NCBI RefSeq assembly: GCF_004011865.1
Contig: NZ_RKLP01000005.1
Location: forward strand, 248,001 to 312,000
Length of the DNA: 64,000 nt
Origin: Prescottella agglutinans
Lineage (GTDB): Bacteria; Actinomycetota; Actinomycetes; Mycobacteriales; Mycobacteriaceae
Direction of reading: 5' to 3'
Shown: one piece after another, positions 42,297-43,478 of the stretch
Position numbering within the stretch: the stretch's first letter is position 1
Layout of the letters: every line of letters begins with the position of its first letter
The notes under the pieces: model-generated
Database searches by the model: none
The model's input: the letters and a program-made list of their open reading frames with translations, nothing else
What the model was told of the DNA's origin: nothing
Translations under genes and position numbers: made by a program

Positions 42297-42450
42297 GTGG
42301 TTTCGGGAGTTGCACGGTTGTCGTTGTGCCGTTGTCGGCTGTGCCGCGGTCGCGGGCGAGGCCTCCACTCGAAACTCACCTGCGCACCCGCGTCACCGCG
42401 TGCTAACGTCCGCCCTTGGAATCGTGGCCCGTAGACAGGAGGTGAGACCC

Positions 42451-42510
42451 GTGAACGCAGTATCCGCGCTGGGTGCTCCCCCGCAGCCCACGATCACGCG
42501 ACTGACCTAG
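42451..42510 (+). CDS. 19-residue leader peptide before the patatin-like gene
   Basis: A GTG-started frame reading MNAVSALGAPPQPTITRLT with its stop at 42508-42510, preceded by ACAGGAGGTGAGACCC, the strongest ribosome-binding site in the neighbourhood. The next gene starts 47 bp later behind a weak site and inside an RNA hairpin. The Pro-Pro and the Thr-Ile-Thr-Arg-Leu-Thr end could stall ribosomes. The layout is that of a translational attenuator. I do not recognise the peptide as a described leader. Confidence 0.6.
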   Translation: MNAVSALGAPPQPTITRLT

Positions 42511-42558
42511 TCGCCATTGGGAGCGCCGTACAAGGCAATTCGCGAAAGGCGACTCCCA
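42509..42558 (+). promoter_or_regulatory. alternative hairpins covering the patatin-like gene start
   Basis: AGTCGCC (42509-42515), beginning in the leader stop codon, can pair with GGCGACT (42548-42554). Alternatively TGGGAG (42518-42523) can pair with CTCCCA (42553-42558), whose last base is the A of the ATG at 42558. The two stems share CT and exclude each other, and a ribosome at the leader end would block the first. Confidence 0.5.
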
Positions 42559-43478
42559 TGAATACAACTCCTTCCTCGATCCCTCAGCGTGCCGCAGGCG
42601 AGCGAGCGCTGGTCCTCGGTGGCGGCGGATCTACCGGCAATGCGTGGCTGATCGGCGTCGTCGCCGGGCTGTTCGAGGCCGGGCTCGACGTGACCACCGC
42701 CGACCTGACCGTCGGGACCTCGGCCGGCTCGACAGCCGCCGCCCAGCTGGCGGGCGCAACGCCGACCGAACTACTCGCCGCCGTCCTGACCTCCCCTCCC
42801 CCACACCGCACCCATCCGGCCGGACCCGATCCACGACGCGTTCCGGCCAGGCCGGTGTCGGACCACATGGCGAGAACGAGCAAGATCATCGCTTCCGCCA
42901 CGGATCCGGCCGACATGCGCCGCAGAATGGGCGCGGCGGCACTCGACTTGGATGGCACGTCGGACGATTCCAGGCAGAACCATTGGCGTGCAACGGTTGC
43001 TGCACGCATTCCCGGTCAGCATTGGCCGCAGCGGCCGTTGCTCGTCACGGCGGTCGACGCCGAGACCGGCGAACCGGCGGTGTTCGACGGCCGCAGTGGG
43101 GTGGATCTGGTGGATGCCGTCGCCGCCAGCTGTTCCAGTGGCTTCGCCTACAGGATCGGGGACCGTCGGTACATCGACGGCGGCTACCGTTCCAACGCCG
43201 AGAACGCTGATCTGGCAGGCGGATACAAGCGGGTGCTGGTGCTCTCGCCCTTCGGCGGCCGGACACGGACGCCGTCGGAGTGGGGCCTCGACCTGGCGAC
43301 GCAGGTCGACGAACTACGCGCGCACGGCAGCAGAGTCGAAACGATCTTCCCGGGCAGCGACTCCGAGTACATGTTCGGCGCCAATGCCATGGATCTGTCG
43401 CTGCGTCCGCCCGCCGCGCGAGCCGGTTACGACCAAGGCAGGGCCTTGGCCGAGCAGCTCACCGCGTTCTGGAACTGA
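42558..43478 (+). CDS. patatin-like phospholipase family protein
   Basis: A 306-residue patatin-type lipid acyl hydrolase. The oxyanion loop ALVLGGGGSTGNAWLIGVV, the nucleophile motif LTVGTSAGSTAAA (GxSxG) and the catalytic Asp in YIDGGYRSNAENAD are complete, so it is a probable Ser-Asp dyad esterase or phospholipase. No signal peptide is seen. ATG 42558 is preceded only by a weak AAAGG. The upstream leader peptide and competing hairpins suggest translational control by an external signal such as an antibiotic or amino-acid shortage (inference). Convergent with the isomerase-family gene over a shared terminator. Confidence 0.88.
   Translation: MNTTPSSIPQRAAGERALVLGGGGSTGNAWLIGVVAGLFEAGLDVTTADLTVGTSAGSTAAAQLAGATPTELLAAVLTSPPPHRTHPAGPDPRRVPARPVSDHMARTSKIIASATDPADMRRRMGAAALDLDGTSDDSRQNHWRATVAARIPGQHWPQRPLLVTAVDAETGEPAVFDGRSGVDLVDAVAASCSSGFAYRIGDRRYIDGGYRSNAENADLAGGYKRVLVLSPFGGRTRTPSEWGLDLATQVDELRAHGSRVETIFPGSDSEYMFGANAMDLSLRPPAARAGYDQGRALAEQLTAFWN

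Follow-up and report, generated by a model that had tools for sequence, protein, structure and literature searches.

A conserved translated leader before five unrelated enzyme families of actinomycetes, probably an attenuator that reports ribosomes held at a start codon

The patatin-like hydrolase gene at 42558..43478 (+ strand) of the window (the whole 64,000-nucleotide stretch of Prescottella agglutinans DNA analysed here) is preceded by an RNA leader that is probably a translational attenuator. It would sense ribosomes that linger at the beginning of a decoy open reading frame (uORF) and switch on the downstream enzyme when they stall. The conserved uORF, its alternative pairings, their geometry, the distribution of the element and the associated promoter signatures are computed here. 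Attenuators of this class have so far been described for single resistance genes; here one RNA, found in about a third of the sampled actinomycete genomes, precedes five unrelated enzymes.

The patatin-like gene and its neighbourhood

The gene encodes a 306-residue protein with a match to Pfam PF01734 (42 bits), a GTSAG nucleophile elbow (Ser55) and an Asp207-Gly-Gly motif, and the GTSAG and DGG catalytic residues are invariant in 33 homologues. An AlphaFold2 model (pLDDT 85) has as its best Foldseek match PlpD (5fya, E 9.8e-10). The Pfam match, the GxSxG plus Asp-Gly dyad and the predicted patatin fold are thus all those of a patatin-like hydrolase. Upstream lie an amidohydrolase gene and an arginase-family gene, which resemble genes of histidine utilisation. 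A clear homologue is found in four of 14 genomes of the genus, and by this comparison of sequences the patatin gene is an accessory one. A role in defence was considered and is unsupported, the NCBIfam and PADLOC matches of the protein being weak and general.

Distribution of the leader

The leader and uORF region span 42415-42560 of the window, and the element is about 145 nt long. It lies upstream of 83 of the 84 homologous patatin genes examined, a frequency that is not due to chance. A covariance model built from patatin leaders (R1), with which the window leader scores 148.8 bits, also finds matches upstream of genes other than patatin. A broader model (R2) has matches in 122 of 395 genomes of the class and 115 of 299 of the order. 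As R2 contains only six base pairs, its matches rest mainly on sequence, and the checks on them are the families of the downstream genes and a betaproteobacterial control, in which none of 99 genomes matches.

The downstream genes of 205 matches were read, these being the best together with chosen middle and weak ones rather than a random sample. They comprise alpha/beta hydrolases (78), rifampin monooxygenases (Rox, 45), PrmC-related methyltransferases (37), GNAT acetyltransferases (23) and patatins (19), so that one of five families stands behind 202 of the 205. The remaining three (L178, L179 and L268) have no clear downstream family; behind the L268 leader (MNAVSMWLLPLRVTVGRVT) no gene of the five families is recognised. 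In genomes of the genus without a patatin gene, all six leaders read precede an alpha/beta hydrolase. A first reading of this DNA, made from its sequence only, had treated the leader as a device of the patatin-like lipase, which is too narrow for an element common to five unrelated enzyme families.

One Rox copy matches rifampin monooxygenases of solved structure with an E value of 2.8e-209 and, as far as sequence goes, the Rox copies are close relatives of these enzymes. Two GNAT-type operons behind the leader (L119, 2622-3236; L122, 2635-3314) also hold an infA gene, for IF-1; the plasmids that carry them come from Streptomyces viridifaciens and Tsukamurella tyrosinosolvens.

The betaproteobacterium Albitalea, source of one of the 83 conserved loci, has both the leader and a patatin gene (L017:2859-3003). 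It is the sole carrier among 100 genomes of its order, itself included, which points to horizontal transfer as the likely origin of the pair. In the Albitalea leader the stop codon of the uORF is changed from TAG to CAG.

Rfam gives no match in the window at the gathering threshold, and four leader loci searched up to E 1 gave none either. A search of IMG/VR with a pattern for the element found nothing, and viral carriage was set aside. Among the papers searched, all outside subscription, there was no account of the element, nor any for VSTWVLP or for a patatin or Arthrobacter attenuator, and the main text of a 50-genome ncRNA paper contains no patatin, hydrolase or monooxygenase motif.

The upstream reading frame

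The uORF (42451..42510, + strand; VNAVSALGAPPQPTITRLT) has 19 codons and runs from a GTG (42451-42453), which is ATG in most relatives, to a TAG (42508-42510) 47 nt before the ATG of the lipase gene. Its peptide would be (V/M)NAVSALGAPPQPTITRLT. The Shine-Dalgarno sequence AGGAGGTGA at 42437-42445 is the complement of the 3' end of 16S rRNA, and 198 of 202 leaders have a stop in this frame at codon 15-21, compared with 18 and 38 for the other two frames. A short upstream reading frame with its own strong ribosome binding site (RBS), one of the marks of a translational attenuator, is thus present, as the sequence-only reading had said, and by all signs available from these alignments the uORF is translated.

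That reading had named conservation of the peptide in relatives as a check. The leader as a whole is conserved, but its distal peptide and frame are not. In 25 of 89 patatin leaders the uORF has 17 codons rather than 19. Beyond codon 10, two frames alternate (LQSTIARLS* versus CSPRSRD*, and likewise VTAGRLT and SRSGD). The segment S2, defined below, is read as VGAP in patatin leaders and as WVLP in the other gene families, and, counted from the uORF start, falls in any of the three frames; the distal peptide is therefore not the sensor. Stalling on the whole peptide MNAVSALGAPPQPTITRLT, proposed earlier, is unlikely on both counts and was rejected, since the natural frameshifts after codon 10 contradict it.

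Constraint on the peptide looks confined to about the first five codons. At Ala3 and Ser5 most of the variation falls on the third codon position (entropy 1.37 and 1.43) rather than the second (0.50 and 0.55), so that the initial residues may be of importance. The conserved arrest peptide of leaders of the ermC type is absent, the reading frame being unconserved both beyond codon 5 and beyond codon 10, and the uORFs contain no run of codons for one amino acid such as an amino-acid attenuator would have. In patatin leaders GCA GTA at codons 3-4 (42457-42462 in the window) is strongly kept; codons ending in A are presumably uncommon in such GC-rich genomes.

In the PrmC-type leaders the start codon itself is replaced. 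AUU or AUC stands at the uORF start position in 14 of the 17 scored, with no AUG among those, and in such leaders (for example L103, L104, L182, L192 and L255) the Shine-Dalgarno sequence and the frame are kept. Control of initiation by IF3, of the kind seen in infC, would be a candidate mechanism for them. The replaced start codon, together with the retention of the distal sequence as RNA rather than as peptide, would suit a riboswitch-like element, a folded RNA that binds a protein or small molecule, with the uORF secondary. Against it stand the strong Shine-Dalgarno sequence, the closed frame in nearly all leaders, the third-position variation at Ala3 and Ser5 and the lack of an Rfam match, and the riboswitch-like alternative is very improbable.

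Competing pairings

Four segments of the leader, all on the + strand, can form three helices. S1 (42437..42450), which consists of the uORF Shine-Dalgarno sequence followed by GACCC, is nearly invariant. S2 (42470..42482; TGGGTGCTCCCCC) covers codons 7-11 and can pair with S1 or with S3. S3 (42519..42527; GGGAGCGCC) is the switch strand, which holds the invariant GAG of the element and pairs either with S2 (ON) or with S4 (OFF). S4 (42548..42557; GGCGACTCCC) extends from the 3' end of the lipase Shine-Dalgarno sequence (GAAAGG, 42544..42549, + strand, retained across most families) to the ATG. S1:S2 and S3:S4 can coexist, whereas S2:S3 excludes both. Complementarity and folding thus give mutually exclusive stems, one of which hides the main RBS and start codon, as in translational attenuators.

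The S3:S4 stem joins S3 to GGCG-a-CTCCC in 9 bp with one bulged A and reaches the lipase ATG at 42558. It is paired in 94.2% of cells and has three pairs with changes on both sides. In an alignment of 80 patatin leaders (A1), whose most conserved blocks are the uORF Shine-Dalgarno sequence, S2, S3 and the lipase RBS, 90.9% of cells form the OFF structure. Changes to both partners occur in 39 cells, where shuffles give 11.9 and slid versions 11-25. In S1:S2, both sides are changed in 10 and 7 sequences at the pairs of columns 24/76 and 25/75, and the duplex energy is about -19 to -21 kcal/mol (shuffled, -12 to -14). S2:S3 reaches about -20 kcal/mol (shuffled, -10 to -12); it is paired in 98.4% of cells and has too little variation to covary, as is expected of strands with two partners. 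Averaged within the five main families, the three helices S1:S2, S2:S3 and S3:S4 are about 3-10 kcal/mol stronger than their shuffled counterparts.

Further helices lie around these segments. Helix Pe (42421..42427 with CCACGAT at 42488..42494, both + strand) closes the 5' hairpin and is paired in 88.8% of cells of the 80 leaders, its changes being mostly one-sided. The hairpin Pb (42498..42514, + strand), in which GCGACT (42498-42503) pairs with AGTCGC (42509-42514), holds the uORF stop codon; 95% of cells are paired, and A-U is swapped for G-C in four sequences. In stem Pc, AGTCGCC (42509..42515, + strand) is able to pair with GGCGACT (42548-42554), as had been noticed earlier, and 91% of cells are paired. 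Pc is stronger than shuffled partners only in the patatin and rox families, by about 1 kcal/mol. The sequence-only reading took Pc as the leading stem, and we considered it as the main switch; both ideas fall with its lack of covariation beyond shuffles and its absence as a universal feature of the gene families. The TGGGAG/CTCCCA stem that had been set against it, which involves the lipase ATG, corresponds to S3:S4 and is longer than was claimed. The idea of competing stems stands, but two of the three decisive pairings had been missed.

The class to which the leader had been assigned, translational attenuation, fits the translated and conserved uORF leader, the exclusive stems and the sequestered lipase RBS and ATG. 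A transcription attenuator would have an intrinsic terminator; here there is no T-run, and S3:S4 ends at the ATG.

Ribosome position and the proposed switch

Folding was computed with a ribosome placed at each codon of the uORF. In the nascent RNA, before S4 exists, S2:S3 has 4.5-8.3 expected pairs when the ribosome is at codon 1-2 and 0-0.8 when it is at codons 4-14, in all five families; the pairing returns with the ribosome at codons 16-18. In the full-length RNA at equilibrium, S3:S4 still wins in most families, even with the ribosome at codon 1. In these foldings ribosome position alters the choice of stem in the nascent RNA and only weakly in the full-length RNA at equilibrium, so that the switch must be kinetic and the start-stall model needs co-transcriptional capture of S3.

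The geometry is that of a uORF sensing stalls at its start codon, with the switch strand just beyond a ribosome held there. In most leaders S2 begins 19-20 nt past the start of the uORF, and in 11 hydrolase leaders 16 nt past it; start-codon-stalled ribosomes have their leading edge at +16 to +18 (PMC12121999). Drugs of the lincosamide, streptogramin A and pleuromutilin classes stall Streptomyces ribosomes on the starts of uORFs before ARE5 genes (PMC12421871).

From these features we infer that ribosomes stall at the start codon, and likewise the kind of signal, the sense in which expression changes and the enzyme substrates. During normal growth the uORF would be folded away in S1:S2 or translated straight through, and S3 would pair with S4, hiding the downstream RBS and ATG. 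A ribosome lingering on codons 1-2, for example in the presence of an inhibitor of initiation or early elongation, would cover S1 and leave S2 free just past its leading edge. S2 could then capture S3 during transcription, leaving S4 single-stranded and allowing the downstream enzyme to be made.

The main rival to this mechanism places the stall late. A ribosome at the end or stop codon of the uORF, through slow termination or macrolides, would cover AGTCGCC and part of GGGAG, open S3:S4 and so turn on the enzyme. With the ribosome at codons 16-19 the median cost of opening the lipase start does fall from 11.7 to 8.0 kcal/mol, the unpaired fraction of the RBS rises in all families (in rox from 0.32 to 0.58), and the stop hairpin Pb is conserved; moreover, the toiL uORF answers erythromycin by stalling at termination (PMC12121999). 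However, late stalling leaves the conserved S1:S2 and S2:S3 pairs unexplained. Frame variants ending in TGA and in TAG also place the stop 6 nt apart, and the C-terminal residues are unconserved, so there is no fixed arrest peptide, and late stalling is on balance unlikely.

Promoters and a possible regulon

A predicted -10 element, TAACGT, lies at 42404..42409 (+ strand), and TANNNT is conserved in this place in 67 of 86 patatin, 29 of 31 hydrolase, 39 of 40 rox and all nine GNAT leaders. Transcription is expected to start 7-8 nt downstream of TAACGT if the published spacing rule applies (PMC7157823). The WblC motif has the consensus GAAAWY-TKGMNN-TANNNT (PMC7157823). A WblC-like AT-rich block before the -35 region is found in 23 of 40 rox, 23 of 31 hydrolase and nine of nine GNAT leaders, with a background of about 1-2%; it is scarce in patatin leaders (5/86) and absent from the six PrmC leaders tested. 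The block occupies the position of the WblC motif and agrees with the published consensus. It links the rox, hydrolase and GNAT families with the response that translation inhibitors elicit, and their transcription appears to be under WblC/WhiB7 control. The rifamycin-associated element (RAE) was rejected as a shared component, since its matches are scattered and loose, with up to five mismatches.

These stress-type promoters in three families also speak against constitutive coupling or fixed repression, in which the uORF would sense nothing and only tune translation of the enzyme, by reinitiation or shielding. In favour of such tuning, 47 nt separate the end of the uORF from the lipase ATG, and the RBS opens when a ribosome stands at the uORF stop. 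Yet three competing helices kept across five families are more than simple coupling requires, and coupling seems a poor prospect, less probable even than late stalling.

Two further observations count against the start-stall attenuator that we favour. The patatin and PrmC-type leaders are mostly without the WblC block, and rifamycin, the known substrate of Rox, does not act on ribosomes. Why an enzyme that destroys rifampicin would sit behind a ribosome sensor is a puzzle.

The genes of the five enzymes behind the cassette probably form a scattered group serving detoxification and the protection of translation. A more tentative extension, perhaps true but held with less than even confidence, is that a largely peptide-independent cassette before at least five unrelated enzyme genes is a general sensor of start-codon stalls, defining a hidden post-transcriptional regulon of antibiotic response. 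Its PrmC-related branch, with AUU or AUC as start, might respond to initiation as such, and both the patatin-like and the alpha/beta hydrolases could be unrecognised antibiotic-inactivating enzymes. The leader may serve as a marker for finding uncharacterised drug-response genes, and it suggests the first inducers to try.

Comparison with known systems

In the erm and cat translational attenuators, competing 1:2, 3:4 versus 2:3 stems hide the RBS of the resistance gene, and a specific nascent peptide arrests the ribosome within the uORF. The present leader shares the competing stems that hide an RBS, but its distal peptide and reading frame are unconserved. The erm system is mentioned in PMC13410324.

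The RAE, like the leader, is an actinobacterial cis element, and has also been used to find rox (PMC10719064). It is, however, a 19-bp DNA palindrome acting on transcription (PMC10719064), and is not a fixed part of the element described here. The WblC/WhiB7 regulon, which responds to translation inhibitors (PMC7157823), is linked to the leader by the promoter signature that lies upstream of its rox, hydrolase and GNAT copies. Its control is transcriptional, whereas the leader would be an added layer that is also found without that promoter, in the patatin and PrmC-type cases.

Closer parallels are found in uORFs that respond to stalls at the start codon. The toiL uORF of the Escherichia coli topAI-yjhQP operon similarly folds over the downstream RBS, and tetracycline and retapamulin stall ribosomes on its start and relieve repression (PMC12121999). 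In contrast to the present element, toiL belongs to a single E. coli operon, stalls ribosomes at several codons and has no S1-S4 switch common to unrelated genes. In the start-stall uORFs of ARE-ABCF genes (are5sc, tiaA, cplR and vmlR; PMC12421871, PMC10201436), actinobacterial ones included, an early stall likewise refolds the leader and induces a resistance gene. These uORFs mostly encode very short peptides (MLV, MRI) and serve one gene family, and are5sc and cplR also use transcription terminators, whereas the element described here has no U-tract and stands before five unrelated enzyme families.
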